Positions 1,697-40,911 of a DNA stretch of 64,000 bases are shown here, one piece after another. The notes beneath the pieces are model-generated. The model worked only from the letters and a program-made list of their open reading frames with translations, had not been told where the DNA came from and ran no database searches. Numbering within the stretch: the first letter of the stretch is position 1; every line of letters starts with the position of its first letter. Both the position numbers and the translations under genes were made by a program. This stretch comes from Saururus chinensis. Its lineage: Eukaryota > Streptophyta > Magnoliopsida > Piperales > Saururaceae. The DNA lies in contig CP141144.1 of NCBI GenBank assembly GCA_035235625.1, positions 43,708,014 through 43,772,013 of the forward strand, in the 5' to 3' direction.

Positions 1697-3470
1697 CTAA
1701 TGTCTCTTAGTAGGCCCTTCTTTTTTCTTTGAGGTGGACTCGTGGGAATTCAGCTCCCCAGCTGTAGTGATCTCAGAAGAATACTTCTTGATCCTCAAGG
1801 AAATCAAAATGCTGGATGCGATTCCAAGTAAAGGAAAGATGTAAGACAAAATCTGAGATTTATGAGAACCAGTGGTAGAAGCTACAGCAGCACTGGCCAG
1901 GCTGCCAATAGAAATGTTTTGCAGGATCATGGGAAGACACCCAATAACTGTAGGGAAGAGGAAGTCGACAAGAAATCGCACTTTAGTTGCAGCTAAGGCA
2001 TAATTTATGACATAAGAAGGTAACGGAGAAAAACGAGCTAGAAGCACAAATTTCCAGCCATCCCGTTCAACTCCTCTTGAAACAAGATGAAAGTATTTGC
2101 TTCTTTGAGCCCACTCCATGGCTGAACTTGAGCTCCTAAAAACAACCCTGGACGAAGATAACAGAGAAATTAATCTTTGAAAAAGTCACAGCAAATTGTA
2201 CTTCTTAGATTCTATATTAATGAACTACAATCTATAATGACAAAAAATGCATAAACTCCACATTGTTTTATCATATTAAAATATCACAAAACTATTCACG
2301 CATCTGCATATGATCCATTATAAAGTTTTACATGATGCTGCATAAACTATCAATCCAGAATCCGAATAGGTAATACAGCGATCCAACATCTAAGATAGTG
2401 AGGATACCTTACATGTGACTATTATTTGTTTTAATAAATATGAAAATGAAATTAATATAGAAACCGATCTAATATTTAATTATGAAAACATTAATCCATA
2501 CAAAAGAAGCTGGACAAGAAAAATGCTTATTCAATTCAACTACGATCAAGGAAATATTGAATCCAATGACCATTTATTAACACCATTTTAACAGTACAGT
2601 GATGAACCCAAGACTCCAGCTGGAAGCAATCTGTGGCCAAAACAATGGCTGAACATCTGATAGGAGACAATCAAAATCAAATAGAGTTCCAAAGTCTTAG
2701 AACACCCTTTGAAGTCTGAAACTTTCAGCTAGTTAGTGCCTAATGGTTCAACGTTAGTTTCCAAATGGAACTCAATCTCCATAAATTTTCAAGTTCAAAT
2801 GGAAAAACAATAAACACCCATTTTTCTCCGACACATCAACCATCCAAAGAACTCCGATCACATGGAAATTAATAATATAAACTCCACAATCAATCCCGTT
2901 CTCGTAGGTTTCATAAATTCCAAAATCGATCCAATTCTCAAAGTCTTACAAAAGTAACAACTCTATAGAAAGCTTCAATACCCACAGCTCCACACCATCA
3001 ATGATCCACTTTACCTTACACTCGATTAAAAATACCCATTTCTCCCCTACCCAGTTTCAGAAGTAACCAAATTCAAATTAAAAAAAAATGGAGAGAAAGA
3101 AAAAGATCTCTAACCTGCCAATCCAGAAGGATAGGGAGGCGCCGAGCATCTTGGCCGAGAATACACAAGCGACAGCGGGGAGGAAGCCGAAGAGAAGCGA
3201 CGCGCCGGCCTCGAAGAAGATGGCGTAGGGGAGGCACAGCGCCAGTGTCACCGTGTGGGCTGCCACATACGCCGGGATCGCCCACGGCCCCAGTCTCTGC
3301 GACATTTCTTCGAGCATCCGCAGCGCAGTGTCCTTGTCCCACCCGTATTGCTTGCCCATGACCCTGAGCGCCGCCAGCACCGCCACCACGACAGCGAGGG
3401 TCGTGAGCCGGCCTATCGACGGCATTATCCACCCCGGATAGTTCGGCTCACGGATGGCGTTTGCCGACAA
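1697..3470 (-). CDS. TVP38/TMEM64-family (VTT / SNARE-associated Golgi) membrane protein
   Basis: This two-exon gene codes for about 268 residues. Exon 1 is 3470-3115 and exon 2 is 2147-1697, stop included. The minus-strand junction GGCAG|GTTAG to CCAG|GGTTG keeps frame and yields IGRVVFRSSSS. Start: the first methionine (MSANAIREPN) precedes a second one at MPSIGRLTT, so either could be used. Features in order are an N-terminal membrane segment (TTLAVVVAVLAAL), a second hydrophobic stretch around AHTVTLALCLPYAIFF, the family signature GASLLFGFLPAV leading to GASLSFWIGR, then ERDGWKFVLLARFSPLPSY, the most conserved VTT motif, and two more membrane segments. The tail is basic and ends KKKEGPTKRH. 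VTT-domain proteins are multispanning proteins of the ER, Golgi or plastid and are linked to lipid scrambling and membrane homeostasis. The exact role of this one is not known from sequence. Exon 1 is strikingly GC-rich compared with exon 2. Confidence 0.9.
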
Positions 3471-4679
3471 GCCGGCAGCGAGTCGGAGGCTGGTGAGGAG
3501 ACGCCGAGTGCGGATGTGGGGGCCTCGCGGTGGAAGAAAATGGTGGAGCTCCGAGTCAGCATCTTGACTCGGTCAGGGCAGGCCCAATTGCCCAAATCTT
3601 GGACGAAGGAAAATGGACTTAGGTGGGCTGACACTGAGGCCCAAATTAGTGAGATTGCTAGTTTGGACTCAAAGGGTGCTGCTGGCAAATTCTTCAAAGG
3701 CCCATGAAGGGTCTACCATGCCAAGAGCATGAGCATGCAAGACATCAACAAGAAAACTTGGTAGATGAAAAATGATCGACACAAAAATTAGCTAACGTGA
3801 CAACAGCCTTGTTCGCTTCCCCTTGGTGTGATTAATAGAAATTTTGGATCAACTGAGTCACTCCATTTTCTCTAGCTAGGGTATTTTGGAAAATGCTTTT
3901 GCTGCATTAAGTTTCATTATTGATGGGCTAAGTCAGTGTCTTGGTAAATGGGTTCCACATTATAATATCATGATTCTTTTTTTATAGCATAACGCTTACC
4001 TATTAGTAGTATCAACCTGCAAGCAAATATTCTACCAATCATACCCTTTATATACACTTATAATTACTATTAATAAGAGCCCAACTCCCGTGCATTAGCA
4101 TGAACCTAAGCATCTTATCTTATCGGATTTCATTTTTAAGGTGGACATTACTTGGGGCAGATAAGTTGCCTACCCCTTACGTCGTCGAATCTCAAATATC
4201 AATCCAATAGCCCATAATGCTCAAGTTCACACCGATGCACATCAACTTAGGCTCATACTTAACTTTTGTCTATACTCATCGTATATTCATCTCATTGTAA
4301 CCATAGTTTCCAATGTTCTCTAATGACCGGTTCCAACGGCCTTAACTCTTCAAAAAACCAAGGAAATAGATCATAGGCTGATGCAAGAGTATAAGTGGCA
4401 TAAATGGTGAAGTGCTGCCATGGGAAGGAAAATGACTTAAAAAGGCCTTTTAAACTAGAACTCTCCTCATGAAGAGGGTTAAATTTCAAAAATTATTTTA
4501 AAATGATGACATTTTACATAGTTATGTAAGATATTTGATCAAAATATCTTCTTTCTCATGTAAAGACAAAAATTATAGGCCTTCTCTTTCTAAGAACCCT
4601 AATTTTTTACTTAATATATCAGCAATATCCGTGTGTGCCTTTTCTCGATGATAAAAATTTCTCACAGGCCTACTATATA
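3471..4679. other. Intergenic: promoter side of the VTT gene, then AT-rich DNA
   Basis: The first 250 bases continue the GC-rich stretch of exon 1 and should hold the 5' UTR and promoter of the minus-strand VTT gene. The antisense frames 3255-3707 and 3425-3697 overlap this high-GC patch and look like compositional by-products. From about 3800 to 4679 I see only AT-rich sequence with no coding or repeat signal. Confidence 0.4.
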
Positions 4680-5854
4680 TACTACAAAAAAAAATTATTA
4701 ATAGGAGTTTTAAAACCCTCGCTACAAGTCTCAAAACCACCACTAAAATTTTTAATAGCAGTTTTAAAATTGCCGCTAAAAAGAACCCTACAAAAAAATT
4801 TTATGGGGAACTTAGCTGCAATTTTATAAGTTACCGCTACAAAATAGACCTTTAGCGGCAACTCTAACAACCACCAATTTTGATAGCCGTCATTAAATAT
4901 TTTTAGCGGCAACTTTCAAAACCGTCGCTAAAAATAATTATTTGTTTATACAAAATTTTATTTAATTTTTGTTTAATCACCTTTACTTTCTGCATTCTCA
5001 TATTCACAACATAATATATTCTCAAATACACCTTTCATCCATTTGAACTTCATATTTATGCAACCTCAAACAAAAATATAAATCTTATAATAACAAAAAT
5101 TATTTAAATCAAGTATCTAATATATTAAGTATTGAAAAAGAAGTTTGTCAAATATAATAGTTCCAATTGTTTACAATATCTAAGTACAAATTGTAAGATT
5201 ATTTAATATAAATAAAGAATAAAAAGTCTTCAATAAGACTTGATCCTTTGGTGCATCTTGACAATTTAGAATCATTCACCGTTAACCTACACAAAATTAA
5301 AATAAAACAAAGTTAGCATATAGAATTATTATACTATAAAAAAACATAACTATATTTTAGAGATAACTTTTTATGCTTTTACCCAGAACGAAACATGCAT
5401 ATTCACCCAAAGACACACAAAGAGAAAGGGAAGGAACCTTTATACGTGCAGAGGTCTGCCATGTAATCATCTGATATTTACAGTGAAGACATAAATTTCA
5501 GCTCAATCACAAGTTGGGAAATAGAAAATCAGTTTATAGACCATTTTAAACTATAGCAATGGCAAAAGAGCAACTCAGAACAGAACAAGAATCTTACTAC
5601 ATTACTGATGGAAGATCTGATTGACAGCTTGTAGATGTTTCCATTAAGGGTAAGAAGTGACAAAAATTGGGCTCAAATTTATTCACTACATGAGGACGAG
5701 GAACTAGCCTCCACACATAGGATATCAGTGAAGGACAGTGTGTTTAGCAGCAAAAAAATACATATCACCTCATCAAAATGATAAGACTAGAAATTATTCA
5801 ACCAACTTAAGTGAAAAAAAAAAAAAATCAAAATCTGTGCAAAAGCACATTTCA

Positions 5855-6086
5855 CCTCATCACTCAGACTATATTGGCTTTGTTGAGTCTTCAACTGGAA
5901 GTAAAGATAGCCTGTGTAACCAACAAGCATAATGCAGCTGCTAAACCTCAAAAGTGATAGCTCAGATTCCCACTCTTGCACCTCTGAACGTGTGAAATGA
6001 AGCACTGCTAGAAACATTATTCCCATCACAGCCATTAGCAGCAATCCCGAATTGACAATTGCAGCTGCCAGTTTGGGAGGTAGCAA
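5855..6086 (-). pseudogene. Fragment of vacuolar cation/H+ exchanger (CAX) gene
   Basis: An open minus-strand stretch of about 77 codons reads NSGLLLMAVMGIMF, then AVLHFTRSEVQ, LSRF-like LLRFSSCIMLV and GYLYFQLKTQQSQYS. Plant CAX Ca2+/H+ antiporters have closely matching text in the region between their two cation-exchange repeats (NSGLLLMAVMG..FPAVLH, ELALSRFSSCIMLVAY..YLFFQLKS). Only this segment of the roughly 450-residue protein is present. Both halves of the transporter core are missing, so no function is possible. The fragment lies inside the CACTA element near its left end, on the same strand as the APH1 exons. Substitutions at otherwise constant positions (for example L for P after MF) point to relaxed selection after capture. 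Confidence 0.8.
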
Positions 6087-6351
6087 ACTATATTACCATG
6101 AAGCCTCTATTGATTAATTACAAGACTGGACACAAGACATGGCATAGAGAGGAATAAAAGAACAAGGTGACTGCAAACCAAAAAACACAAACTCACAAAA
6201 CTTCCATGTTAGCACTTTCATAAGGTACAAGTGCAAAAAGAAAAGAATCAAAAGGTAAACTCCTAGCACTATCTAAAGATGATTATTTAGTTCAAGTTAA
6301 GCATGTATGGTTTTATCGACTGAGTATTGTAAAGAAGAATGAGTAAAAGCA

Positions 6352-6520
6352 CCTCATCAAAATCATCTTCATTTGACTCATCCTCGTCGGAATCATCATC
6401 ATCACCTCCATCTTCAACTAGCTTTTTTTTTTTACTTGGTCTTACTTGAGCTTTCAACTTTGCAGATGAAGGTTCAGGTTTAGCTGCATTTGCCTTGTTA
6501 GCTGAAGGCTTAGGTTGCAC
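6352..6520 (-). pseudogene. Exon fragment of a Lys/Pro-rich acidic nuclear-type protein
   Basis: An open minus-strand stretch of about 56 residues has a KP/AKPEPS-rich basic half followed by DDDDSDEDESNEDD. It ends at a good splice donor (GATGAG|GTGCTT). The layout, a basic AKP linker followed by an acidic Asp/Glu/Ser run, resembles the middle of plant HD2-type nucleolar histone deacetylases or other nucleoplasmin-like chaperones. Low complexity prevents a firm family call. It sits inside the CACTA element between the CAX and APH1 fragments, on the same strand as both. Confidence 0.45.
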
Positions 6521-6940
6521 TTATTAGCCTTTGGCCTCCCTGCTCAAATGAGATATTAAGAGACTTTATTAGAGTCGACATATCCCATGTATGTTAGATA
6601 TTAACCGCATGTCAAAGGCAGTAGATTCATTAACTTAGCAAGTCAGCATTAAGTTTTCATTACTCTTAACTTAAAGGAGATACTCACATATGTGCCAATC
6701 TTGTCTTTTAAAGCAAGGTCGTCATCCATTAAAATCTGAACAACATCTTTCACAGACTAGAATTTTGCAAAACATGAACCAAAAATTTATATAAAACAAA
6801 AGCTCCTCCGAGATCTACCAGAACAAACATCATACTATATACAATCAATTTTATGCAGCCAGTAGCATATATATATATATATATATATATAAAGGACTAG
6901 AACATTACCCATAATGTGTGAGAGAGAAAGATAGATGTTG

Positions 6941-7491
6941 TAAGACCCCAAGTGCTCTCTACCTTTCTCAAGTTATGCTAATGATTCATAAAAATGCAGT
7001 TACACTTGATTATCAGTCCACATTCAACTTTCAGTGACAACATTTTTGTTTTTTAATATAGAAAAGAAATCATCTTAAACAAGTACATTTTCAGAGATTA
7101 AAAAATATAACGTGTAGCTAAACTTCTATATAAGCTCTCAATTCTAAAGTATGAAAATGATCTGACCATAGAAAGTACCAGAATTTTCATACCGCAAAGG
7201 AGGTGGACCTGACTGAACAAAGAACTAGTAAACAGAGAGGTGAATAAATATCTCAATTTACCACAAAAGTCCTGTTTACATATGCATTTCCCAGTCCACA
7301 GTTAAAATAAATGAATACATTCAAAAAATGCTCACTAATAGTACCCTCAAGACCCCAAATGCTCTCTGCCTTTCTCAAGTTATGCCAATGATTCAGAAAA
7401 AAAATACAAGGTACATTTTCAGAGATTAAAAAATATAACAAGGTGTAGCTAAACTTCTATATATGCTCTCAGTTCTAAAGTATGAAAGTAC
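6941..7491. repeat. Direct duplication within the CACTA interior
   Basis: The sequence at about 6941-7165 (starting aagaccccaagtgctctc) recurs at about 7349-7491 (aagaccccaaatgctctc). The shared features run in the same order: ctttctcaagttatg, cattttcagagattaaaa, tagctaaacttctatata and ttctaaagtatgaaa. The second copy is shorter by an internal deletion of about 80 bases. The copies differ at several positions, so the duplication is not recent. Confidence 0.75.
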
Positions 7492-7734
7492 TTATAACAA
7501 GTATAAGTGGCTCATTTGACATAAACCCAAGAGCCAAATGACAAAAATATCAATGCTAAAACTACATATAGCATTCATATCAATGTGTGCAGTGAGAAAT
7601 TCGTGCTAAGTTGGACAATAAAGCAACATACTATAGATCAACATGCGTTTTTTCCAACAGAAAAAAAAAACATGAAACAAATGTACAGTGAGCAAAGAGC
7701 CTCGGTACTTACCACAGACAAGGAAAAATGGCAT

Positions 7735-8435
7735 GATTGAACACTTTGCCTACATAAAATGTTGCTGGGCCAAATGCAGGGGTTAAGATGCTCAGACAGA
7801 AAAAAACTGCATCAGTCACAGCATGACCCAAACCACCAGCTGCATATCACAAACTCAAAGATAACACAAGTATGCCAGATTTAAAGGAAAGGCTTTGGGA
7901 TATAAAAAGCTAAGCCTCACAACTAATTAGAGAAAACAAACATATGCCATTGACTTTAAGCTGGTTCTGGAAAGATAGTAGGCAACCACAAAAGCCTTTC
8001 AAAGCTTACCAAGAACAATTTGCACTCTGTCTGTCAGATAGAGGCGAGGATTTGAAATTCTAACAGCAAATGCCTCCAACATCTCTTCCAGCATCCTACG
8101 CTAGAACCATGCAATCAATTTTCGAAAACAACATACAAAAGATACAAAAAATCATACAGAGTGGAATATTTAATCTTTTCTGAAGGAAGCTTGAAAATTT
8201 CACCCTCTCGCTAACCCTCGCTGATTTTTAAGATTGACTAGCATGCAACTAACAATGTTCTGCTCTTCTTAATGACTAGCATGCAACTAACAATGTTCTG
8301 CTCTTCTTAATGACTAGCATGCAGAAATCAGAATATTAACTTACTTGTAGATCTTCCAAAAGACAACCCGCAGACCTTCTTGTAAATCAACAGATGTGAT
8401 CCGCAAGATTTCATAGAGCCACCATGAAGCAGATT
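7735..8435 (-). pseudogene. Three exons of APH1 (gamma-secretase subunit) gene
   Basis: Minus-strand exons are separated by GT-AG introns. At about 8430-8345, [12 protein letters not shown] then [13 protein letters not shown] is followed by the donor GTAAG. At about 8096-8010 the text is MLEEMLEAFAVRIS then PRLYLTDRVQIVL. At 7839-7740 it is [14 protein letters not shown] then [14 protein letters not shown]. These match the central APH1 sequence in order, including the GxxxG-like GGLGHAV stretch and [10 protein letters not shown]1 is the multispanning scaffold of the gamma-secretase complex (with presenilin, nicastrin and PEN-2) in ER and endosomal membranes. The first two membrane segments, all C-terminal segments and any start codon are absent. 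Retained introns show the piece was copied at DNA level. It lies inside the CACTA element. Confidence 0.82.
8235..8323. repeat. 38-bp tandem repeat, 2.3 copies
   Basis: The unit beginning tgactagcatgcaactaac is present at 8235-8272 and 8273-8310 with no difference I can see, and the first 13 bases follow as a third partial copy. It lies in the intron-like space between two APH1 exon fragments. Near identity suggests a recent slippage event. Confidence 0.85.
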
Positions 8436-9700
8436 TTAAAAGAAGAAACCCCCTCCAAAGTGAAGAGAGAAAAATCAAGCTCACCAGCCATAACAAAGTG
8501 CTGCACTCATCAATTACATGTCACCATCATAAATTCTCAAACTTGCAATACGATTTGAGTTACATTACACTTGTAAATATATGATGTTAATAGCATATAG
8601 CTAGCAAAATGTAGATAAAAAAAGGAACTTACAATTAATAACCGGTAAACACATACTTAGCTGAAAAAGGAAAAAGTAACTGTTTGAAAAAAGGTATGAA
8701 TGCAGCTATTTCTTCAGCTCCAGGTTCACAATCATAATTTCCATGAAAATATTGCCAAATCAACACATTTGCATAATTAAGTAAGAAAGAGCAGTTCAAT
8801 GCATGAAGATGGCAGACCAATTAAAGAGAGATTGGGCCAAGTTCTATTCAATGAAACCAAAATCTTTAACAGACTGTTGAAATGCCAGACAGTGCTAACA
8901 TAAGGTGGGAAGCCAAGAATGGAGGATAAAATGGAAACAGCAATCAAATATAAAGAGACGAAAATCAATGAGGCCAAGATGTTTGACTTGCATAAGAAAT
9001 AGCAGACAATAATTATTATCATAATTAAAATCCAAGAGAAAATTACTCTGCTAAGAAGAACTAGAAGATAAAGTTGAATAACAGAAAGAAGCAGCTGCAG
9101 TTCACATCCAACTGGTAACGAACTAAATTAGGGGTTCTTCTCAATGCTGCCATGGGTCAATGAATTAAATATGGGGCTATGCTATCAGAAAACCTGTATC
9201 GTTATGTCTATGAGGCAAGAAACTAAAAGCTCCAATAATACAATCGGGTTCTGTCCCTCTGGTGACAATTTTACCAAAGTTTCCCGGGGTTAACTATCCA
9301 TCTACCTCAGTATATCACCCTCGATAAATTCATAACGAAGGTGGCGCAAGGGTAATATCTTTGACCAATTTTTTCTATTGCTTCCATTTGCTAGTTGGTG
9401 ATCTGGTATGTAGGACTTTGTGTTTTCATGTATGTGTTTCTAGGGTTAAGAAAGAAGAATGGGCAACTATTCTTGCTGCAACAAGCAGAAGGTCAAAAGG
9501 GGGCTCTGGTCACCGGAGAAAGATTAGAATCGTACAATATTAAAACAAAACAGAACAGAACATATTTAATCAATATGAATCAAACAAAACACAAATCAAA
9601 ATTGGAGTTCACGGAACATTACAGAATATATTTAATCAAAACAGAACAGAACAAAACGTAGATCAAAAGAATGCAAATCAAAACAAAACATATATTTAAA
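8436..9700. other. CACTA interior without recognised exons
   Basis: Short minus-strand frames at 8635-8820 and 8777-9022 are hydrophobic but match nothing I know. The stretch 9540-9720 is a degenerate A/C-rich repeat built from aaaacagaacagaac-like units and is not coding. Confidence 0.4.
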
Positions 9701-10454
9701 AAAATCCAACCAAAAGTTCACGAGATAAATTAGAAAACAAAACAAAATAAATCCAAAATACAGATACAAAGCATACCGATTGAAGCCTTCAAGTCAAGAA
9801 CAACACTCGATCCAGCAAATTCCAGCGGAAAGGATTATGATTTTGCAAATAAAGAATGCGCTAAACAATTAGCAGGATATAATCCCGCCTTTACAAAATT
9901 TTTGCAGGGTTCCTCTGCAGCGGCGGAATCCACCTCTCTCGCACCAATCAGCAAACTGCAGCGGCAGTTTCTGGGCTTTCTCCCTCAATCTCCTCTCGTC
10001 GTCTCTCGCTGAGCACAACTCTGCGGCAGATGTAGCAGCGACTTACTTAATCCCCGCGAATTGAAAGACGCAATTGTACATTTAAGTGATTTTAGCGGGG
10101 CGCAACGTTAAACCCCCCGCTATAAAACCCTTTTAACGGGTAACTTTTTAAGCCCTCACTAAAACGTCCCCTTTAAAGGGTTTTGATTTTGTAGTGATAA
10201 TATGAAGAATCAACTTAAGTCCTTAAAAATAAAAAGATATCTGGATCTACATGCCTATAAATCAGGACCAGACATCAAGGTAAATTGCTGAAATTAGGCA
10301 TATAAAGGTGAACCAAATAGACAAGCTTCACTCATTAGTCAACAGATAATTACAAAAGCTTCCTCCTCCCCAACATAATTATAAACTAAAGAGAACAGGA
10401 AAGTTCGAGGTGGCATGAATATGGTGACAAACTTATTCCCAATAGTAAAAATCA

Positions 10455-12116
10455 TATATAAAACTAGCCTTGTCAAAGCGCTTTCTGGCTTCCTGCATCA
10501 ATAAAATTCGTTACAGTACAGCAACTGAATCAGAATATGCCAAAACAAATTGCAAGTAGTTCAGATGATTAACACAGTAAACTGCTATTTCCCATTTGGT
10601 ATGAGTAATAAAATGAATAATTCAAAAAGCTGCAACATGATTAGAATGCCAAGTTCAAATACTACACCTTGACTTCATGCAAATCCAGGTTCACAAATTG
10701 CAGCAGTCTGACATTCAATATGTGTTCAACCTGGAACGACATGTAGGCAACACATTGCCAGCTTAGCATATATATCTTGTACATTTTTACTCAATACAAA
10801 ATTTAACCCACTTATGAAAAATGACAATACAAAATGCCTTTCTATTAACAACCGAATATATCAATCTTATAGCCTACATAACAAGTTACCCATATTGGAA
10901 AAATTAAAGATGGATTGCCAAATCCATAACTGGGAGCGCAAAATTTCCTTGTATGTGCCTATTTCTCTCAAAGCAATTCTAAATTTGGTCACAAAAGGTC
11001 CTAAGGAAACAGTAAAAGGTACCATATAAAACTAGAACCAATTGGTATGCACCCTTTTCGGTATATACAAGGCATTAGAAAAATGAGTTAAACGACTATC
11101 ATTTAGTAGCCAAAATTCAAAAGCATAAATAAGATTTAGGCATAACAAATAAAATGTTGCAATTCAAAAATAAATTTACAAAAGAAACAGTATCATATGT
11201 CCACGGATATTAGCTCAACTTCACATAGGGTCATATTTGTCTAATGCACATACTTGTATGAACAGATAGCTTCTGTATTAACTTGGTCTACTCTGAAGCT
11301 CTAGTTCTTTTGTTTATGAATACTAAATTATTTATTAAAGGTTGAATATTGTTGAGTCCTGTTCATGGATGGTGTAGTACTTTTCAATACCAAGTCATAT
11401 TTTGCACACAATAACATTACGGAAAAATTACTCTCTGAATACTGTGCTCCCGCAATGCAGGGCTATGGCATTTGCAGAATGCGCTGGCAGGCCTAACATG
11501 GGTGGAAGCCAGCAGGGTGGAGCCAGTGGCATAGAGGGGGTGGGAAAATCTCCTGCCTCCTTGTTTTGCAGACTTTTCCTGACGGACTGTCAAGGGGAAA
11601 AGGGGAAGGGGAGAAAGATGATCTGACAATAAGACTGAAGACACAGAACCATGAACCATCACGAACTCAACATTGGGAGTCATCTATCATACAGGACCAT
11701 AATATATATATTTACTTTTCTATCCCAGACAAAAACGTTTCTTGTTTTTTGATAACATAACCTTCTTCAATGGACATGAAAATGGTCTACAACAGAGCTG
11801 GGTTGACGATGATAACAACTTACTATTCTAAAAATGCCTTGAGGACAAAAAGAGATAATAGATTCACAAATTCTCTTAAATTAGATTTTGTGTAATAGGA
11901 AGGTCTAGCACATTGTGAAATAAATACTATAAATTCAGCTTGTACTGTCAAATGAAAATAATTACAATTGTTAAATACTTAAACAAATGCATACACACAA
12001 ATACAAACTACTTACCACCAAAAGCCACACTCATGGGGTCATTAAGACTGCCGCCGAATGTTTCAAGAGCACTAACAAAGGTAATGTCCCCATCATACGC
12101 CTCTCCAAGTCCCTCT
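10455..12116 (-). pseudogene. Exons of a BAR-domain ARF-GAP (AGD1/AGD3, ACAP-like) gene
   Basis: Three minus-strand exons with correct splice borders are visible. The piece at 12116-12016 reads EGLGEAYDGDITF then SALETFGGSLNDP and MSVAFGG. The piece at 10730-10668 (21 codons) reads VEHILNVRLLQF then VNLDLHEVK. The piece from 10492 down to about 10455 reads EARKRFDKASFIYD. They match consecutive N-terminal BAR-domain exons of the plant ARF-GAPs with BAR, PH, GAP and ankyrin domains (AGD1-AGD4; AGD3 is VAN3/SCARFACE). These proteins act on trans-Golgi membranes. The exon between GG and VEH was not found, nor were the PH, GAP or ankyrin parts. The CACTA element begins immediately downstream at 10196. 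It may have cut the fragment, or the host element of this fragment may end there. Confidence 0.8.
11130..12010. other. Intron-like spacer of the AGD fragment
   Basis: No exon is recognised between the AGD pieces here. Opposed short frames at 11402-11626 (plus) and 11417-11683 (minus) overlap a locally GC-richer patch and show no family resemblance. Confidence 0.35.
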
Positions 12117-12729
12117 CTGCATGGTAAAGTCAACACAACTAACTATAGGCAGAAAGACAGGAAGATAAAAACACACTCTTCCCTTGAATTCTTATAATAA
12201 ATTATCTAGTTATTTGATCACAGAAAAAAAAAGGCAGCAGTAGCAGCGCCTTTTGTGTATTTAATTCATGGGGTAGAAAACAACATTAACATGATAAAAT
12301 GCGCTGGTTATAAACAACTAGGGTACAAAGGAAATATTCATCAATATAATATAAAAAATAAACAGCTGCACATATGCATATTTCTGACATCCTTTATAAA
12401 ATTTTAAACCCCTCTCCCTCAGGAGATTCAGCACTTTCTTTCAGAGACAGAATCTGTAGACAGAATGAGATCAAGTTAAAAAACATTAACTTAATATGAC
12501 CAATCACATGTCAATGAGAAACATTTGCACACAATTCATTACACTGGCATATTTTAATAAATATGGTATCCATTTTGACAAGAGAAGAATACATACGAAG
12601 TCTTATAACAATACAATAACACTGGGAAATACTTTACTTGGGAAGCATTTTCTATGCTCCCTACTAACCGTGCCGGTCAGCGTAACGAATGCATAGGAGC
12701 CCTTCATCCATGAGATTGATGACAAACCC

Positions 12730-12760
12730 CTAGCGCACGTTAGAGTATAACGTGCGCTAG
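12730..12760. repeat. Perfect 13-bp inverted repeat (hairpin)
   Basis: The arm ctagcgcacgtta at 12730-12742 is followed by a 5-base loop and its exact reverse complement at 12748-12760. It lies in a GC-richer island (12660-12810) that is open on the minus strand (NAWEALIFEIDGAH and onward, unrecognised). It is too short and isolated to be called a terminator in a plant genome. It may be the relic of a small element or a regulatory palindrome. Confidence 0.7.
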
Positions 12761-14304
12761 CATGTGCACCGTCAATCTCAAATATCAAAGCCTCCCATGC
12801 ATTCCTCACACAGGGAATATTGTCAGTGGGGATCTTTAAAAATGCTTCCTTATACCATACTTGATATGATTTGTGCTAATGGTACATTTTCAGAGGAAAA
12901 TTAGGGCCTGTTAGGGGTTTTGGAAAAAAAAATTCCAAGAAAAGTTGCTTTCTAGGAAAATTATATTTCTAAGAAAATAAATTTCCTTAGAAATAAATAT
13001 TTCCATGGTTAGGGGTTCATTTGAAAAAATTTCCTGGAAAACTTTATTAATGTATATTTTTCAAAATAAACTAGCTAAAAAATCACCTTCATAAGAAATA
13101 ACATATTTAGGCCTCTTGATACTTATTTTTTAGCTAAAAAAATTATGTCTTGTACTCAAATACACATTTAAACCCTTGATTTTAAAATTAAGGGTTTTAA
13201 AAGGGCCCATTCAAGCCACCCAACACAACAGCTTTCCGAATGGGTAGGTTGAATAGGCCCAATTGGCCCCTTCAATTTAAAAGTAAAGGTTTATTGTGTA
13301 CAAGATAAAATAACCTCTATTATATATATTTTTATTTTTTTATCACTTACCCTATTAGTAGGTGTAGAAAATTATCTCCATAGGACTTTTTCCCATTTTT
13401 CAAAAGGCCTGTACCCCTTTGATTTTTGTCACTTGCCCTGTTCTAACCTCTAGCTTGCCATCTTCTCATATTCATTCGTCCCACTCCCACATTACCTCTA
13501 TTCAGGTTTTCTAATTATTTAAAAATAAATAAATTTATTATTATAAATTAAAAGAATATTTTTTATCTTAAATTAATAATTTTATTTAATTTTTTAAAAT
13601 AAGTTAAAAGGGATGAAGTATTATTTTGCAACAACTCCAATTAGCTTTTTTGGCGGCAAATTTTGAAGAAGAAAAAGGTGCCAGTCAGGTCGGGAACCAG
13701 GCGAGGCCACTTCCATAACCGTTTTTTATACTTAAATCTAAATACATAACCATAAAATAGAAATTTCAGATGACATGGAAGAAGAAAGACGGAAGTTGGC
13801 CCAGATCTACAAAGAACACGAAATCTCACTGACCGAGGGAGGAAAGAGCATCAGAGAAACAAATCTACAGCTTCAAACCTGTCTCATTTCCTCCTCTTCC
13901 ATTAGTTGCAACAAAGGCATTTTTGTGAAGGTATATCCACTGACATTCAGTTTAATAGTGATAGGTCTTGCAATGAAGCAAATCTAAATCACAAATCAAA
14001 GATCCATCTGCTTTTACCTATCTCCAGACTCACAGAAAAAATATTGTTAGCAGTCCATATCAAAGTGGTTCCTCACAAATCAAATTTCTGTTCAGTTATA
14101 AAGCAGTTTAGCAAATGGCTTCTCCTCCACCTTACTAACAGTTCTCAATCAAATTCTAAACGTCACAAAAGCAAGTACTCTTTAAGATACGAACATGTAG
14201 TTGTAATCCCAAGGTTTCTAAAAGCTACCAGATGAACTAGTCTTTAAAATTAATACAACACACAACAGAACAGAATATAAAAAGGGATAGCGAACTCTAC
14301 TTCT

Positions 14305-16158
14305 TCAGTCTTTCTTTCTAGAATCTTTAAGCTGCCCCTTCTTCCGAATGTTGAGGCAGAACCAAAGGCACCACCAATCTACAACAGACTCCGGCAATGT
14401 GTAAGCCAGTTGTCGCATAATAGAGTGTGGCCAGTAAGGTGTGCATCGAGGTTCATAGCCAATCCAGCGCAAGGCAGCCTGGGCATATGCATCCTATGAT
14501 GGAACAAAAAAGCTGGACTTTCTGATCGATGCCAATTTTGTTGCCACATACAGTGGGGACCTATAAATGAGAGGGACAAACCATAAGTTGATCAGAAGAA
14601 CCCTAGCAACTAAGTCCTAAAATAACTAGAATCAATTCATTTAAAATTTTATAGCAAATATGTAATATTGCAGTTTCACAAACAGATACGACCCATGTGC
14701 TAATCAAAAGCACAAGTTTGAGAACATTGAAGCCTCAAAGATGGACTCTACCAAAAAAAGCCTCAACAATGGACCAAAGCACCATTTTCATACATAGCCG
14801 TTGTTTCAATTGCTAGTTGATTAAATGCTGGAGAAATATATAAAATGAAAACTGCAACTATAATTTTCAGTTTGGTAATGAAAGTAGATCAATATATAAA
14901 ACAGAAAAGACCGATAAACACCATTAGGAAATTGTAAAAAAAAAAAGTGAAGTACTGAACGGATAAAAAAGGAGACTTGTGAGCAGAAGCACACTCCAGA
15001 AAAATACACAATCTTCCAAGTCAAATGCTTCAGTTGTTTAGTACTATTTTAATCATCAGAAGCTTTGAGACTGTGAGGACTAGGTGAACATTAACATGGA
15101 AAGCAAACGGCATTCCTTTTGTCTGGATTTCAAATTTTGTTTTAAGAAAATGAATTTTTAAACTTTATCATGCTAAGAAATTTGTGCGTACATTGTTTGC
15201 AGCATGGGTTGTTGAGAATAATAATTCAAAACAGCCAAATGATGACAGATAAAAAAAATGCATAACCGATTTCTTTTTGAGTTTGATTAGTTGATAAAGT
15301 CATTCAGTATCACCGCTGACAGCCTGTCTTTATCTATAGGACTGATTACTTCTTATCAACTAAAAAAATACACCCTTTTTACATGTACTGCTCATAACTG
15401 AGAGCACCACATATGAAAAAAAAAAAAGTAAAATCCCGAAAGTAAAAGGCAAGGTCATGCCTAGAATCTCACGAAATCAGCATGAATAACTGCATACCTG
15501 ACATTGCACGTCAATTCCCTTGTTCTTGTATTCAACATAGAGGCATCTTGAGAACTGATCAATATAACTGAATATAAAGGAAGAAAAGAGATAATTAGTT
15601 CTATTTAAAAGATCAATTTAAATAACAAACTTCCCACCATTTATACCAACAAAAAAAAGGATCCACTAAATGAAAAAAAAAACAGATACTAATGAATCTA
15701 TACTATCTCAGGATCCTACAAGTAGTAGTTAGACAAACAAGTACTTGAGCCTGTGAATATTTCAATTCACATATCCAGTGAAGAAAAAGTAAGAAAAAAA
15801 ATTCAAGCATACAGAGGGATAATTCATAAGAATTATCGCACACTTGGTATCTAGTTATAATATCCTTTCGCTTTAAGCTAAAAAAAGGTTGCTGAGGAAA
15901 GAGCTTGTTAGTGTTCCCTTCATTAGCCACCAAAATCCCATCTTTGTTTCATTGAGTTTGAATCTAACCAAGTTATCAGCAATAAACATGAGGAAAATTC
16001 GGTTCAAAATATCAAAATGGATAGGAAAAAGGAGAAAAGACTCACACTTTTGTGGCGGCATAAACAGCATAGAGAGGATCTGAGGGACCGACAATGGCCG
16101 CGCCAGATCCAATACCATTAAGGAATATGTGAGAGCAGAAATTTGCCGCATCCTTGAT
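14305..16158 (-). pseudogene. 3' exons of a very-long-chain beta-ketoacyl-CoA reductase (KCR) gene
   Basis: Three minus-strand exons in gene order are visible. At about 16140-16048 the text is NGIGSGAAIVGPSD then PLYAVYAATK, which includes the short-chain dehydrogenase YxxxK-type active site (Y..ATK). At 15567-15498 it is [13 protein letters not shown] then [10 protein letters not shown]. At 14570-14305 it is PLYVATKLASIRKSS, later GYEPRCTPYWPHS, then RKKGQLKDSRKKD and a stop, ending in the dilysine ER-retrieval tail known from KCR. The enzyme reduces 3-ketoacyl-CoA in the ER fatty-acid elongation complex. The NADPH-binding Rossmann half and the membrane anchor are missing, and a TAG interrupts the last exon just before DAYAQAALRW. 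This is a broken fragment carried by the TTA-flanked element. Confidence 0.85.
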
Positions 16159-16689
16159 AAAAAACCACCACAACCATTATATATAACAACTATTTTCCAT
16201 GTGTACTATTACTTCCCCCAACCGATGCTAAGGACTGTTGGAACTTGAAGCTTGTCTAGCATAGGTTAAATTTAGCAGGTCCAAGAGTTTTGCTCGACAT
16301 CAACAATTTGGTCTGAAAAAGAAAAATCACAAATATCCAAATTATACACAGTTCTTCTATGAAATAGGAGAAAGATAAAAAATCAAATGCAAGTTCAACC
16401 TACAATAGTAATTTATTACAGAAAAGTTTCAAATTGCCAAATACAGTCAAAATCTATTCAATTGCCAATAATTAGGAAAAGAATCTAAAACACCGAAACG
16501 CCAGAAGTCTCATACCCACAATTCCAAATCCAATCAAATGATATAAAATTGAATAAACGAAAAGCAGCATGTAAGAAAACAAATTGAAATCACAAAACGC
16601 CATAGAAATGGATCGAACCCACCTCACTTCTGGTACCCGCCTCCCTGGCATTTTCGTCCTCCTTGACGGCACAGGCGAGCTAAACCCTG

Positions 16690-16883
16690 GGAAAGCTATC
16701 GGCGTCGAATGTCTTCTCCTTCATCATGCGTTCGACGTTGGGCTTGCAGAAAATGGTGTGGCGGATTGGGGGGCGGTTGCGGCGCTGGTCGACGGGCTGC
16801 GGGAAGTGGGAGAGGAAGGAGGAGAGCTAGTGGTGGGCCGCTTGGAGGGAAGCGAAGGCACGCTTGGAGATAGCGAGCAGCCA
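16690..16883 (-). pseudogene. Unidentified GC-rich exon, probably a captured first exon
   Basis: On the minus strand an ATG at about 16883 opens MAARYLQACLRFPPSG, followed by a proline-rich stretch. A second frame over the same DNA ends HTIFCKPNVERMM, KEKTFDADSFPRV and a stop. The first resembles a mitochondrial or plastid targeting peptide in composition. The second reads more like real protein, so the two together may be one exon with a frameshift. I do not recognise the family. GC content is far above the flanking AT-rich element body, as is typical for captured first exons. Confidence 0.4.
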
Positions 16884-17133
16884 TGGCCTCATCCTGGTGG
16901 AGGTGGCTAACTCCGTCAGATTGGAGAGGAGAGCAGCAACCTGACAACTATTGGAAATTTTATTTCCAGAGGGTAGAGGGGTTGGAAAATAAATCCCACT
17001 TTTCCCCCCTTATTTCCATAGGTCGGAAAATAAAATTTTTCCATATTTTATTTTTCTACAACCCCCAACCACGTGCATTATACTTACCCAGGAAAACTTG
17101 TTTTCCAGCTGTTTTTTCCAGAATAGGCCCTTA

Positions 17134-17857
17134 ATATCATAATCTAAGAAAAAATACCCATCTTCATCTATCCATGATTAAATGAACTGAAGTTGATGCC
17201 AAATTCACATTGCGTGGCATGTACTACCTGCTTAAATGGTAGCTTTAAACCTATGACCAGAAGCCTTCTTAACTTTTTTCACTCTTTGTTTTTTCCCTTT
17301 TTTTGTTTTGTTTCTTATTCCTTCACTTTCTTGTTGTCACATCCATCTTACAATTCAAAATGTCTTTTACTATTGAAATAATAAAATCTCTTCTGTATGA
17401 ATATTATTGAACTTTGGTCAAGGACTTGAAAAACCCCAAAACTAGCCGTTTGGACTTCAGCCAAGCTCTGCTGACTGCTGCAAAAAAGGTTCATTATCAG
17501 CTTGCAATGCAACGAGGAAGATTCATCATCAGGAAATGCAAGATCTTCTCCCATTCATGCTCTCACATGTGAAACATTTAAAAAGATCAGAGGAGGAATC
17601 AGTTATGACCTCTATTTTCTTTCAAAGTTTAGTTTTCATAAATTGAGAAATTGATAAAAGAGTAGTGTAAAGGCTCCAAATTGAAATTGCATCCTAATGA
17701 CACTACAAGCTTGTAAGGAAAATACAATTCAAAAACTTGTCAATAGACAGATGCAGCTAAAGGTGAACATATATGTGAAAATTTGATTCACCCCACGATA
17801 TCAGTTGTTTATGTCCAGAAAATTATGTGGCAATTAATATCCAGGAAAAAAGAATAT
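17134..17857. other. AT-rich spacer, nothing recognised
   Basis: The short frames at 17193-17381 and 17348-17554 are compositional. No repeat or exon is seen. Confidence 0.35.
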
Positions 17858-17870
17858 TTATGTACCTAAA

Positions 17871-18091
17871 AACAACTCTATTATTTGTGGTTGAAGTTCT
17901 TTGTCTCTTAGCTTGTGAATTCTCCAAGATATGAATTCATTAGCTTTAGTAGCAATGCTATGCTTGGTTTCCAACTCCTTTTTTAATGCTTGGAAGGCAT
18001 CAATCTTTGAAGTCTCTGCTCCCCTGTCATCCAAAATTTGAAGCCTCTTGCACTGCCTTTCATAAAGAAGATGCAACTTCTCCTTGCCCTA
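17871..18091 (-). pseudogene. Exon of a DUF632 (NRG2/REL-like) gene
   Basis: A minus-strand exon bounded by TTAG|GGCAAG and TTTTTAG|GTACAT codes for about 72 residues: KEKLHLLYERQCKRLQ, LDDRGAETSKIDAFQA, then ISWRIHKLRDKELQPQ. This matches the DUF632 domain of plant DUF630/DUF632 proteins (YEKKC..L..LD.RGAE..KID, SRIHKLRDEELQPQ). The family includes nitrate regulator NRG2 and leaf-shape regulators. The downstream LIxGLxRMWK core and the N-terminal DUF630 domain are absent. It is a single captured exon in a repeat-rich setting. Confidence 0.8.
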
Positions 18092-18099
18092 ATATAAGC

Positions 18100-19080
18100 A
18101 CAGCCACATAACTGAATTAGTAACCACTTTTTTCTGAGTACTAATAACATTCAACACTCTCCAACTCAAATGCAATGAAGTTAATAAAACACTATTGACA
18201 AAAAGTATAAATCAATGTTCAACTAAAAACACATAAGAAAATGCAAAAGGCAACACAAAGTCAAATTCTTGTTTAATGACCTAATATGAATAACAAAAAA
18301 ACACAATTCATAAAAGGAAATAAACAATTTAATTATTTCTTTAAACACTTATTAAAAAGGTCTCAGAAGTGCTTCAAACTTTGATTTTATGGAAGGATGC
18401 TGTACACCATAATTATAAGATGCATCTCACAGAATATCTGTATTTAGCATTTCAAATAGTCATTAAAAAACAATAATTTCACTCATGTTTCTTATATACT
18501 TCTTGCTTAAGTTTGTACATGCATAGGGAGGATTTGGGCATAGGTTAGTAGTTTATCTTTTTTGGGTCGACCCTGTTGGTTGCTGCAAGGTAAAAATTTA
18601 TGTTCTAGGAGTATATAGGAAAAGGAAAGGGAAAAAAATTCCCTACTCCTCATACAGAAGAAAAAGGGGAGGAAGCCTTGTGAAGTGGCCCGTTGATGAC
18701 ATCTAGAGTATATTGAATGAACTATGCTTTTTACACAACCTATGATCAATTTTCACACAAAGAATAAAAATTCTGATAAAAAAAGTCCATTATATTACCA
18801 TTCAGGATGCTAATACATTAAATTTCTGTGGAGAACACAAGTCACATGTGGCAGAGACAGAGATATGGGAACCCTGGCATAGAAGAAATAGAGAATAGAC
18901 ATTCGTTGATTTTAGTGAAAATCACCACTCCTGGCCAAAATTGGAGTAAGCTAGCTGTATTTTGTTAAAAACCAGTGATTGCATATTTCAGTGATACAAA
19001 CTATAGCAACAAGTCCATAATACAGTTTAGCACTTGTATTATAAGAAACTGATGTATAACAATAACAAGATTTGTTTGTT
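18100..19080. other. AT-rich spacer
   Basis: No exon, repeat pair or RNA gene is recognised. The frame 18507-18749 on the minus strand is probably chance. Confidence 0.35.
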
Positions 19081-19194
19081 TTTAAGGAAGATAAGAGAGA
19101 GCTTTATTACATCTCAATTGAAACCCAAATTTATAACAACGGCAAACCAAAAGGAAAATGGGGGGAAAAACATAAAAAGAGAAAGACAGACCAA

Positions 19195-19363
19195 CCTGGG
19201 TACCAGCCTCGGCGAGGAACTGCTGGAGCTTTTGGGCATAAGCTGGTGCCACAGCCACTGGTAGAGATCTGCAAGCGAATTGTATCAACCCACGAGCTCT
19301 AGCAAGGCGTTCCAATGCAATTCCAAATAGGTGCTCCAATCCGACGAGAACTAGGCAGCGCAA
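19195..19363 (-). pseudogene. Unidentified exon, possibly captured
   Basis: A minus-strand open stretch reads GIALERLARARGLIQ, then SLPVAVAPAYAQKLQ and QFLAEAGTQ, followed at once by a possible donor (CAG|GTTGGT). Codon use and the clean donor look like a real exon, but I do not recognise the family. The sequence upstream (19364-19540) is GC-rich and may be its 5' end. It is on the same strand as all the other captured pieces. Confidence 0.4.
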
Positions 19364-19599
19364 GTAGAAGGAGATATCGAGTGGGAACCATCTCTGGCGA
19401 TGGAGAGATGGCGATGAAAAGGGATCAGGTTGATGGTCACTTTTCCTTCAAACAAAACGACTCGCGATCGCCATGGAAGATGGTAGGAATGAGACGGAGG
19501 GTGGAAGAGTTCAGCATCGGGCAAGATCAGGATTAGGTTTCAGCCAAATAAGATGGGAAAACCCATCTGACGGCCCAGGCAATTTGAGTAATGCCCACC

Positions 19600-19693
19600 T
19601 TATTTTCCAGCTAAATTAGCTCATAAGTAAGCTTGTAACAAACACCCTGATAAGCCAGCTTTTAGCTGGCTTTTCAAAGGTCTGAATAAGTTA
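19600..19693. mobile_element. Right terminus of a PIF/hAT-like element (left end not found)
   Basis: The sequence ends ...ttaaacaaacagaccc followed by TAA. Read in reverse it starts TTA-GGGTCTGTTTG, very like Tourist-type or hAT termini. Just inside lies a palindrome agccagcttttagctggct (about 19653-19671). I could not find the partner terminus between 10.2 and 19.6 kb or further left. It may be lost, so this end may bound the element that carried the DUF632 and AGD exons. Confidence 0.45.
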
Positions 19694-20262
19694 AACAAAC
19701 AGACCCTAACTACCAAAAAATAAGGCACCAACTGAAAATTGAACATGGTACATGATTAACAATCTATAGCTGTGTAAGATATTTGTTCTACCAGATCAGA
19801 ATGACGGTATGTTCAGCTGGCATCTGGAGAGATTACCATAGAAAAATATGAAGTAGACAACATTCAAATGTGGAATCAAACCAAACAACAATACCAAGGG
19901 GAGCGGAGCATTAAAGAAAACAAAAGCAGATATTCTGCAATAGCAACAACAAATACTAACTCAAAGGCACCGTCATTTATTGAAAGAGATTAATGTAGTG
20001 ATATAAATCAAGTTCAAGGTAAGTACACTAAAACATCGACCACAGAGACCTCGCCATCCCTCAAAAAACAAAAGTTAACTAATCCCCAATTTCATTCCTT
20101 TTGTTCAAAATTCTTTCATTTCAAAGAGTAACCTTCACTTCTCATATATCCAAGTCTCCTAACCGTCAACTGTATAGGAGAAGCAGAGAAAAAAAGAAAA
20201 AAGAAACAGAAGAACTAATACAGAACCTCGTACATGAAGAAAGTTCTCTACTGCTTTTCTAT
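19694..20262. other. Intergenic, including 3' flank of the bL12 gene
   Basis: This is AT-rich sequence with no repeat or exon recognised. The last 100-200 bases should be the 3' UTR of the minus-strand bL12 gene. Confidence 0.4.
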
Positions 20263-20910
20263 TCACTCCATCACAACCGTTGCACCTATAGCCTTCATCT
20301 TCTCAATAATCTGTTCCGCTTCCTCCTTGGATACGCCTCTTTTGATCACGGCTGGCGTTTTCTCCACCAAATCCTTGGCTTCCTTCAGACCCAAGTCCGT
20401 GAACGTCCGCACCTCCTTAACGATCTTAATCTTCGAGGCAGCATCATACTTTTCCAACTTCAGCTCGAAAACTGTCTTCTCCGGCTTCTTCTCCTCCTTC
20501 GCGGCCCCGCCGCCCGCCCCCTTCATTGCCGCTCCCACTGCCCCCGCTTTCATGACGCCCACGACCGGCGCCTCCTTCACGTTCAGCTTCCTCATCAGAA
20601 CCAACGACAACTCGGATACCTCCGACAATGTCAGCCCGGCGATTTCGTCCACGAGGCGAAACACTCGATTCGTGGGCGGGCTCCGGTGCTCAGTGGGGTC
20701 GAAGTTGGAGGGGTCGTAATCTGCCGGTAGCTTCCGCGGGTCGATCATCTCCGGTTCCTCTTCGTCTTCTTCACACTGCTTGGCAGGGAGGGAGAAGCTT
20801 CGGCAGGATAACTGCAAGCTTGTCAATGCGGAAGCTACGAGTGCAGCAGAAGCTCGATTCTGGGCAACCCCATTTGGGAACAACTGCCCTAAACGAGAGA
20901 CGAAGCTCAT
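20263..20910 (-). CDS. Mitochondrial large-subunit ribosomal protein bL12 (L7/L12)
   Basis: A single exon of 215 codons if translation starts at MSFVSRLGQLFPNG; an in-frame ATG eight codons upstream (20934) is less likely. Residues 1 to about 60 are an Arg/Ser/Leu-rich, acid-poor presequence typical of mitochondrial import, ending near CRSFSLPAKQ. A short acidic linker and a PxDYDPSNFDPTEHRSPP stretch follow. Then come the L12 N-terminal dimerisation helix (RLVDEIAGLTLSEVSELSLV), a Gly/Ala hinge (MKGAGGGAAKEEKK) and the C-terminal domain ending VKEVRTFTDLGLKEAKDLVE, then AEQIIEKMKAIGATVV. In the C-terminal domain the KIKIVKEVR and GLKEAKDLVE motifs contact translation factors. bL12 forms the stalk that recruits elongation-factor GTPases to the mitoribosome. 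The frame is intact and the GC-rich coding sequence contrasts with its surroundings. Confidence 0.93.
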   Translation of the reverse strand: MSFVSRLGQLFPNGVAQNRASAALVASALTSLQLSCRSFSLPAKQCEEDEEEPEMIDPRKLPADYDPSNFDPTEHRSPPTNRVFRLVDEIAGLTLSEVSELSLVLMRKLNVKEAPVVGVMKAGAVGAAMKGAGGGAAKEEKKPEKTVFELKLEKYDAASKIKIVKEVRTFTDLGLKEAKDLVEKTPAVIKRGVSKEEAEQIIEKMKAIGATVVME

Positions 20911-21719
20911 TTCTTTCTGGGTTGAGGCGCACACAGAACTACAAAGGGATGCTTTATAGTAATCTCTAAAAGTCTAAAATGCCCCTTTCATCCCAAGCCC
21001 GCAGCTCCCTCCCTGACCAGCAGAACGATCCCTCCCCTTCCTCTTGGCCTGCTTGCGAGACCCGGGCTGCAGGCTCGGATTGTTGAGCCGAAACCGATCG
21101 AGGCCCGGAGTGGCCGAAAGGACGGCTAAACCAGAAGAGGAAGCTCGAACGCAGAGCGACAACCCATCTCTTTTCGTACGTGAACGCGTGCAACGGACAG
21201 TGACGGTCTGGGGGTAAGAGGCTTCACGTTTCCCTGCGAGGGAATTGCACAAACAAATGGAGAGTGAGAGTAGAAGATGGGATTTTACTTTGAAGGCGAC
21301 GGCCGGAGGTGGTGAGGTTGTTTTTGTCTGTTCCGTCGGCGTCTTATCGGCGTTTTGTCAAACAAAACCTCTTCTACGCCATCCACGGACAGCAATTCAC
21401 GAGGGCTAAAGCTAATCGCCACGACTTTAGCCTAACCTGTTATCGTAACGGACGGATGAGAAGTCTCCCGCTCCCACTTTATCCAGCCAACCCCCTTAAC
21501 TCACTTCATAAACTTTATCTCGCCCACCTCCTTAACTTAGTACATATTTACGTTCTGTATATAATATATATATATCTTGCCGTTTGGATATCTACCAACT
21601 ACGTAAAAGTAAAGAATAAGGTGGGTTAAATAAAGTGAGGGTGGCAAACTTCCCACCCTATTATAACTAGCAACTTATTTGTGCCTTTTACCAAAGTATA
21701 CACCCATTTACAAAATATA
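20911..21719. other. 5' flank of bL12, GC-rich then AT-rich
   Basis: The first 350 bases are GC-rich and should contain the bL12 5' UTR and promoter. The minus-strand frames at 20966-21193 and 20974-21252 overlap each other here and are probably by-products of composition. From about 21500 the DNA becomes AT-rich with a short TA microsatellite near 21560. Confidence 0.4.
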
Positions 21720-22090: not shown

Positions 22091-22119
22091 TCCCAAATAG
22101 GAATTCCAATTCGTCTCTA

Positions 22120-22315
22120 AGCTTTGAAAGCACAGAGAAGCCGTCGTCGTGCCCTTTCGCCCAAATCTGCCATTGTCATCCCCCTTTTGCCTAAATCCGC
22201 CGCCACCGTCCCCATTTCGCCCAAATTCGCCGCCGTCGTGTTCCGCCCAAAACTGTATGCCGCATCCCCTTCACTAAAACGCTCAAATCCATCGTGTTCC
22301 CTCACCAAGTGATAA
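22120..22315. other. GC-rich imperfect tandem repeat inside the MULE
   Basis: Repeated cgcccaaat(c/t)cgccgcc(g/a)tc-like units give open frames on both strands (22124-22312 plus and 22117-22308 minus). This mirrored openness is a hallmark of a simple repeat and not of a gene. It lies just inside the left terminal repeat and may be part of the element's 5' leader. Confidence 0.5.
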
Positions 22316-23171
22316 TTTTTTTTAACTATAGAGCTTTGTTTCTAACATTTAGGAGGAAATTTGGATGTTTATAGTATATTTTATTTAGATTATTTGATTC
22401 TAACATTTAGGAGCTTTGATTCTAATGTTTAGGAGGAAATTCCAAACTATTAGGTAGAATTCGGCTAGTTAGCTAGCTCTCAGGTATGCTATGATTTTTT
22501 TTCCTGTAATTTGCATTACATTCATAGAGTGTCTGCCTCTTGGTGTGGTAACCCACTTGAATTTCATTGCTAACTTTTGATCGATCAATAATCAGAGTGA
22601 AATGTGGTTTAGTATTTTATTGTTTGGCGTTGCAGCTGCTTTCTGGCTGATATTTATAACTGATGAGTTCTTTTTCTATTGTGCTACCACCCTTTTGTAA
22701 AAGATTATGGATTTCTCAGTGTCATTGTAGAAAACATTTATGTGATGACTTTGATTCTTCTCAATCAATTGCAGTAATTATATATGTGATATCATTTTTA
22801 TTTAAAACTAGAAAGGATAAAGAAAAATGTTACGTGGATGTTCTCTTTATTTATTTACAGGTCAATTAATTTCTTGTTTTATTAAGTAAAGTAGTTATTT
22901 TGAGGCAATTGATGAATACATTATTTATGTAATTTATTGTTTATGAATTAAGTGAATAAAAATGACAGAAGCAATGGTTAGTTTTGTACTTCACTATGAA
23001 GGATGTATAGTTGAATTATTAATTCAGAAAATGTCTACTTATGATGAATTTGAGATGTAAGTAGCTAGCAAAGTTGGGTGGGACTGAAGAGGATGGAAAA
23101 TTACTATAAAATATTATATCCTAACATATGGATCGAGATCGACACTAATATGTATAAATGATGATGCATCA

Positions 23172-25800: not shown

Positions 25801-25886
25801 AAACATACAATTAGTCTTTTTTTATTAATCTCTATTTTAGATATGACTATATGTTCTTAACAATCTTAATTCTCCACATATCATAT

Positions 25887-40676: not shown

Positions 40677-40911
40677 AAATTAATTTAGATTTTTTTGAGA
40701 ATTTTTTTATACATCATATTTTAAAATTAATAAAAAAATTAAAATAAAATATAGTATCGACACTTAAGAAATTGCGTCACTAGTACCCTAGGTAGTAGTG
40801 ATGCGCACACATATGCGTTGCTACTTTCTACGGTACTAGGGATGCATTTTTCGATGCGTGACTAATATATTTTTTTTTATTTTTTGATTAATTTTGATAT
40901 ATAATATATAC

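Follow-up and report, generated by a model that had tools for sequence, protein, structure and literature searches.

The window analysed here is a 64,000-nucleotide stretch of Saururus chinensis DNA (C5:43708014–43772013, in a 516-Mb genome of 11 contigs). Its left part carries pieces of six identified donor genes, all on the minus strand: CAX, MND1 and APH1 in a 5.5-kb CACTA-type element, a KCR-type gene in a second terminal inverted repeat (TIR) element of 4.2 kb, and AGD (a BAR-type ARF-GAP) and DUF632 in an older block that holds both insertions. A sequence-only reading had placed all such pieces inside stacked transposons. This stands for CAX, APH1 and KCR, while AGD and DUF632 are found outside the two elements, each of which interrupts AGD.

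The minus-strand exon pieces proposed in that reading are real. The open frames of this strand were listed and ten pieces were then scanned against Pfam. The APH1 piece matches Aph-1 (PF06105) with an E-value of 6.6e-7, or 1.8e-10 with two exons joined by hand; its splice signals are visible, and for this piece the retention of introns is confirmed. The DUF632 piece gives an E-value of 3.2e-19 and the MND1 piece, with 24 residues, one of 9.2e-6 (PF03962). The KCR-type piece matches adh_short at 1.1e-6 with its exons joined by hand. None of three single KCR exon frames has a Pfam match at E 0.05, the last exon alone has no Pfam family in the ten-piece scan, and the joined pieces find two weak enzyme matches among solved structures (E 3e-4 and 9e-4). 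The CAX piece stays below the cut-off in Pfam (Na_Ca_ex, E 0.022) and also below the model's cut-off in NCBIfam (calcium/proton exchanger, E 3.7e-7), and finds no match among solved structures. It shares 60% amino acid identity with a gene-like relative at C4:11877967–11878182, which reads as a clear exchanger once the adjacent exon is included (Pfam E 4.2e-17). The AGD piece is assigned through DNA homology to the AGD gene at C5:5.74 Mb, and its exon 3 alone has no Pfam match. We take KCR (3-ketoacyl-CoA reductase), CAX and AGD to be the appropriate names; the tests themselves show a short-chain dehydrogenase, an exchanger and homology to a gene that has BAR_3, PH and ArfGap exons. An acidic frame, AGD exon 3 and the last KCR exon are the three of the ten scanned pieces without a Pfam family. 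Frames 6290–6520, 16699–16947 and 19085–19447 have no Pfam match, the last showing a chance-level E of 0.17 over part of its length, and ten further minus-strand frames (three of them the single KCR exons) have none at E 0.05. On the plus strand, none of the 20 longest open reading frames reaches the Pfam cut-off; two give matches below it (E 0.0055 and 0.014), and shorter frames were read by eye only.

The CACTA-type element occupies 4680–10196, with TACTACAAAA at the left end and CACTACAAAA, inverted, at the right. The right end is exact and the left end has one change, and the termini are of the CACTA...TAGTG form. In the sister copies L011 and L012, CACTACAAAA stands on the left side. The 3-bp target-site duplication (TSD) is ATA, found on both sides of the window copy (4677–4679 and 10197–10199), and the empty site is seen in L023. 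No transposase frame is recognised inside 4680–10196; an autonomous partner was not sought. The element carries host gene fragments with possible parents elsewhere, as in non-autonomous Pack-TYPE (Pack-CACTA) elements. Its cargo begins with the CAX exon at 5790–6092 (minus strand), weak by Pfam and with its best gene-like relative at C4:11877967. An open frame containing low-complexity tracts, both basic and acidic, follows at 6290–6520 (minus strand), and then a minus-strand block with the MND1 fragment at 6572–6891, with the helix-turn-helix part in frame 6652–6756 and DNA matches in sister copies. Mnd1 matches elsewhere are candidates for the host gene; the short piece of the window is absent from the 16 rows of the MND1 genome search. 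The APH1 fragment comprises internal exons and introns at 7537–9032 (minus strand). Its identity to C5:14117455–14118919 is 90.9% (BLAST, gaps counted), or 94.8% with gaps ignored, with one frameshift relative to this gene at C5:14.117 Mb, which looks intact and is a possible parent. The proposed CACTA element with an ATA duplication therefore exists, and it carries CAX, MND1 and APH1 fragments.

The second element lies at 12904–17130. It has GGGCC-type inverted ends (GGGCCTGTTAGGGG...) and a TTA duplication at 12901–12903 and 17131–17133, and its empty sites are seen in L022 and L023. The TTA-flanked element of the earlier reading is thus also found, with the KCR-type fragment inside. The captured part is the 3′ half of a short-chain dehydrogenase gene at 14080–16114 (minus strand), and the frame of its last exon (14308–14493) is open up to the stop codon. 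The candidate parent at C6:26227054–26231824 is 89–93% identical, with last exons open where read and a long unmatched stretch between. Three sister copies, located at C1:4.29, C2:46.61 and C1:8.63 Mb, are 90–96% identical over most of the element, KCR included; the one at C2:46.61 Mb lacks about 1.1 kb at 15843–16922. KCR-less relatives, such as C10:10409589–10411480 and C4:40984587–40986305, carry 13707–14079 and then continue from 16109 or 16115 onward, which bounds the captured block to 14080–16114. The TTA flank had first pointed to PIF/Harbinger. The four copies with both ends read have TTA (window), TCA (L034), TAT (L035) and TAT (L037/L039), so that the TWA-form duplication of PIF/Harbinger fits one of four and this assignment was dropped.

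The older block is read around these two elements. An AGD exon 7 remnant with its 3′ splice site lies left of the CACTA element at 4619–4679 (minus strand), with a junction to other DNA at about 4621. Between the elements, 10197–12903 (minus strand) contains exons 2–6 with introns, counted by eye and 83–85% identical to C5:5739574–5741945, and part of intron 1 follows right of the second element at 17131–17416 (minus strand). With the inserts set aside, AGD homology runs from 17416, where it stops, to about 4619 and covers exons 2–7 only; neither exon 1 nor any exon beyond the seventh is matched by DNA of the region. Exon 2 is out of frame, as read by eye. The full AGD gene at C5:5738.3–5747.6 kb has BAR_3 (E 8.7e-15, from a hand-joined and incomplete set of exons), PH (E 1.6e-7) and ArfGap (E 5.3e-33) exons, while its ankyrin part was recognised only by eye. 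The AGD exons were at first taken for an intact gene standing at its own site; this was dropped, given the full gene on C5 and exons 2–7 only in the window. Next to AGD, the DUF632 fragment occupies 17601–18523 (minus strand, coding frame 17861–18088). Its identity to a single stretch of the DUF630/DUF632 gene at C1:11.738–11.743 Mb, which is intact-looking where read (DUF630 E 8.1e-26), is 86%. This gene and the full AGD gene on C5 are possible parents of the two fragments. An exon-like piece without a family lies at 18815–19416 (minus strand, open frame 19085–19447). At L058 (C5:39456352–39459952), sequence like 60910–61500 of the window (90%) stands about 0.9 kb from sequence like 18815–19416 (75%). 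Farther right, at 19471–19706, lies a repeated PIF/Harbinger-like terminus, GGGTCTGTTTG when read inward, with a TAA flank at 19707–19709, which may be the right end of an older carrier.

Two further copies of the locus, found by DNA search near the end of C11, separate these layers. Genome DNA searches scored at most 40 first-look candidates, and further places are possible. Copy A (L023, about C11:35766.6–35777.5 kb, minus strand) matches window 488–21193 and lacks both insertions, with 4679 joined directly to 10197 and 12904 to 17131. Copy B (L022, about C11:35791.9–35802.4 kb) matches window 6870 to 21269; the right part of the CACTA element is present, and 12903 is joined to 17131, so that the second element is absent. 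Since copy A has neither insertion and copy B has the CACTA part only, the order of insertion can be read: there were two separate insertions, the CACTA element before the second element. The divergence of the copies gives the same order. Copy A is 91.7–92.7% identical to the window over four segments, and copy B is 94.5–95.2% identical over the three of these four segments present, with its CACTA part at 96.4%. The AGD gene at C5:5.74 Mb (L025) runs uninterrupted through the CACTA site, which by reading lies 7 bases upstream of exon 7. About 115 bases at 19379–19493 are present in the window and copy B and missing from copy A. A third related copy at C11:35808555–35814020 (L002, L026) joins window 672–2132 directly to 6533–8904; here the flank with the VTT-domain gene and the CACTA interior are fused, perhaps by a deletion.

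Sister CACTA elements show how the cargo itself may have been gathered. Among the 14 rows of the CAX search, one is the window itself and two belong to a single place, and a gene-like C4 and a distant C6 match (38%) were set aside; the CAX piece thus occurs in ten other places among the matches listed. All ten match window DNA from 5286 rightwards and nine also match CACTA sequence farther left. The MND1 block of most CAX-bearing sisters is known from DNA only. MND1 and APH1 occur without CAX at C11:3.69, C11:20.41, C11:20.46, C9:33.31 and C7:25.56 Mb, each time with the left block of the CACTA element. At C3:33.60 Mb CAX and MND1 are found without APH1, at C2:37.87 Mb MND1 without CAX or APH1, and at C10:12.59 Mb CAX without the MND1 block, 6125 running straight into 6896. 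All three are together in the window only, among the places scored. Within each sister copy the CAX, MND1 and APH1 blocks have a constant orientation relative to one another, and short inverted matches of about 28–34 bases lie in the CACTA backbone. The CAX frame is stop-free in three of 11 places (window, C5:35.79 and C3:33.60 Mb); in a twelfth row, one half of C5:31.81, it is also stop-free, and the other half has stops. The sister elements carry the CAX, MND1 and APH1 pieces in differing subsets. These subsets show that the CACTA cargo was assembled in steps, by stepwise capture or by recombination among related elements. At C11:20.41 and C11:20.46 Mb (L007, L008) a GGGCC-type terminus like 12904–13132 stands on the left side and a CACTA end on the right, and L007 has TAT on both flanks. 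These two are possibly an element with mixed ends, a chance arrangement, or an insertion with truncation.

The fragment-bearing region sits between two minus-strand genes. On the left is a VTT-domain gene with a frame at 1697–2119 (Pfam VTT_dom E 1.5e-13) and a second frame at 3078–3470 (E 0.0078, below the cut-off), and on the right a ribosomal L7/L12 gene at 20263–20934 (Pfam E 5.9e-22). Right of the latter, 22100–26950 contains plus-strand transposon-like frames, among them a plant mobile domain frame (Pfam PMD E 1e-28) and a SWIM-like frame (E 0.0086, below the cut-off). Tandem arrays with units of 147, 46 and 56 bases, together with long AG-rich tracts, were seen at 53306–53601, 55061–55224, 36724–36928 and 40449–41651.

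Very probably, the fragments are passengers of two separate elements nested in an already broken AGD copy, and they form three blocks rather than one gallery. The locus between the VTT-domain and L7/L12 genes would first have held the broken AGD fragment (exons 2–7) beside the DUF632 fragment. After duplication of this block, a CACTA element with MND1, CAX and APH1 fragments inserted just before AGD exon 7, and after a further duplication the second TIR element with the KCR 3′ half entered the window copy only; the copies show these two insertions and their order. A transposase working at the termini would have moved the fragments as passengers, in the manner of Pack-TYPE elements, with a capture step that is likewise presumed. 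Several observations weigh against this nested origin. The left CACTA end begins TACTA rather than CACTA, and copy B has the CACTA element only from 6870 on, showing its insertion on the right side only. No CAX gene is close enough to be a clear parent (best 60% amino acid identity), and neither the left end of the AGD/DUF632 block nor a left TIR was found there. The six identified donors also all agree in strand, with a chance of 1 in 32 if they were independent.

How the oldest block came together is a separate question, and an answer compatible with the nested origin is that it is itself an older PIF/Harbinger-like Pack element, with its right end at 19706 and its left end near 4400–4620 or lost. 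We regard this as tentative, a little short of evenly balanced. Several donors lie in one block, and right ends like 19706 have a TAA or TTA flank in all seven readable cases, window included (eight were looked at, and L064 was unreadable). However, no left TIR was found, and the repeat at 4420–4621 is not matched in any of the eight right-end loci compared, nor is there a match in the reverse comparison in five loci. Treating this repeat and the terminus at 19706 as the left and right ends of a single element thus finds no support, and the block could be rearrangement debris.

The sequence-only reading had put the agreement of eight pieces in strand at 1 in 128, but the independence behind this value is not borne out: some of the pieces are exons of the same donor gene, and some move together as a block. 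Likewise, 1 in 32 is overstated, because MND1, CAX and APH1 were assembled in one element lineage and AGD lies with DUF632 in one block. Only three units count as independent, namely the old block, the CACTA element and the second element, and these agree by chance in 1 of 4 cases. The common polarity is then three blocks agreeing by chance, with exons of one donor agreeing trivially, and no special cause is needed, neither a single transcription unit nor a common Helitron carrier. Evidence for a cause is accordingly weak, though it is not nil. A functional polarity, with the fragments serving as sense cassette exons in an AGD transcription unit and favoured through splicing into chimeric transcripts, seems to us improbable. 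The CACTA element does lie inside an intron of AGD, its fragments running in the AGD sense, the APH1 piece keeps its splice signals, and in the soybean wp allele a CACTA element that sits in an intron and carries five fragments gives chimeric transcripts (PMC1947982). However, the AGD piece is truncated at both ends, with neither exon 1 nor anything past exon 7, its exon 2 appears out of frame by eye, the APH1 piece is frameshifted, and three blocks agree by chance in 1 of 4 cases. The corresponding general proposal is just as doubtful, namely that capture or retention by TIR elements is polarity-biased, that unrelated fragments build up as exons in sense orientation, with respect to the gene of landing as well, and that this locus would yield the predicted spliced chimeric transcripts. 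Least probable of all, and very unlikely, is one older carrier such as a Helitron that delivered all pieces in the same orientation before being cut up: the shared strand and the stepwise multi-fragment collection described for maize Helitrons (PMC3288121) speak for it, but both elements have inverted ends, 3-bp duplications and empty sites that show two insertions at different times, copy A has AGD and DUF632 without the CAX, MND1, APH1 and KCR blocks, which contradicts it for these four, and the sole recognisable end of the old block, where no scan for Helitron ends was made, is TIR-type with a TAA flank. The proposed Helitron-like carrier for all pieces was rejected on these grounds; a Helitron origin of the AGD/DUF632 block by itself is less firmly contradicted.

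The nested locus is a well-preserved example of a known process, closest to Tgm-Express1 and the Pack-TYPE elements. Tgm-Express1 is a 5.7-kb CACTA element in an intron of the soybean F3H gene (wp allele) with exon and intron pieces of several unrelated genes, and its fragments are spliced into host transcripts (PMC1947982). The element here is similar in type, size (5.5 kb), cargo of several unrelated gene pieces and intronic position. In contrast to Tgm-Express1, the element here sits in a gene that is itself a truncated fragment, 7 bases from the splice acceptor, with a second fragment-bearing element nearby, and the locus is not known to yield transcripts. Pack-TYPE elements are described (PMC8903248) as non-autonomous TIR elements with a TSD and host gene pieces, in maize often from more than one locus. 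TIRs, TSDs and host gene pieces are found here too, as in Pack-CACTA and Pack-PIF, but the TSDs of the second element vary and the nesting in duplicated AGD-fragment copies gives a readable order. With maize Helitrons (PMC3288121) the locus shares donors gathered stepwise, but both inserted elements here have inverted ends and 3-bp duplications. A capture model for Pack-CACTA appears in a review (PMC13317346), and further literature includes PMC8978399. When strand agreement is counted piece by piece over exons, without first sorting them into independent blocks, its significance is overstated. Three duplicated copies of the locus with neither, one and both insertions, together with sister elements carrying differing gene subsets, give a compact record of stepwise fragment capture.

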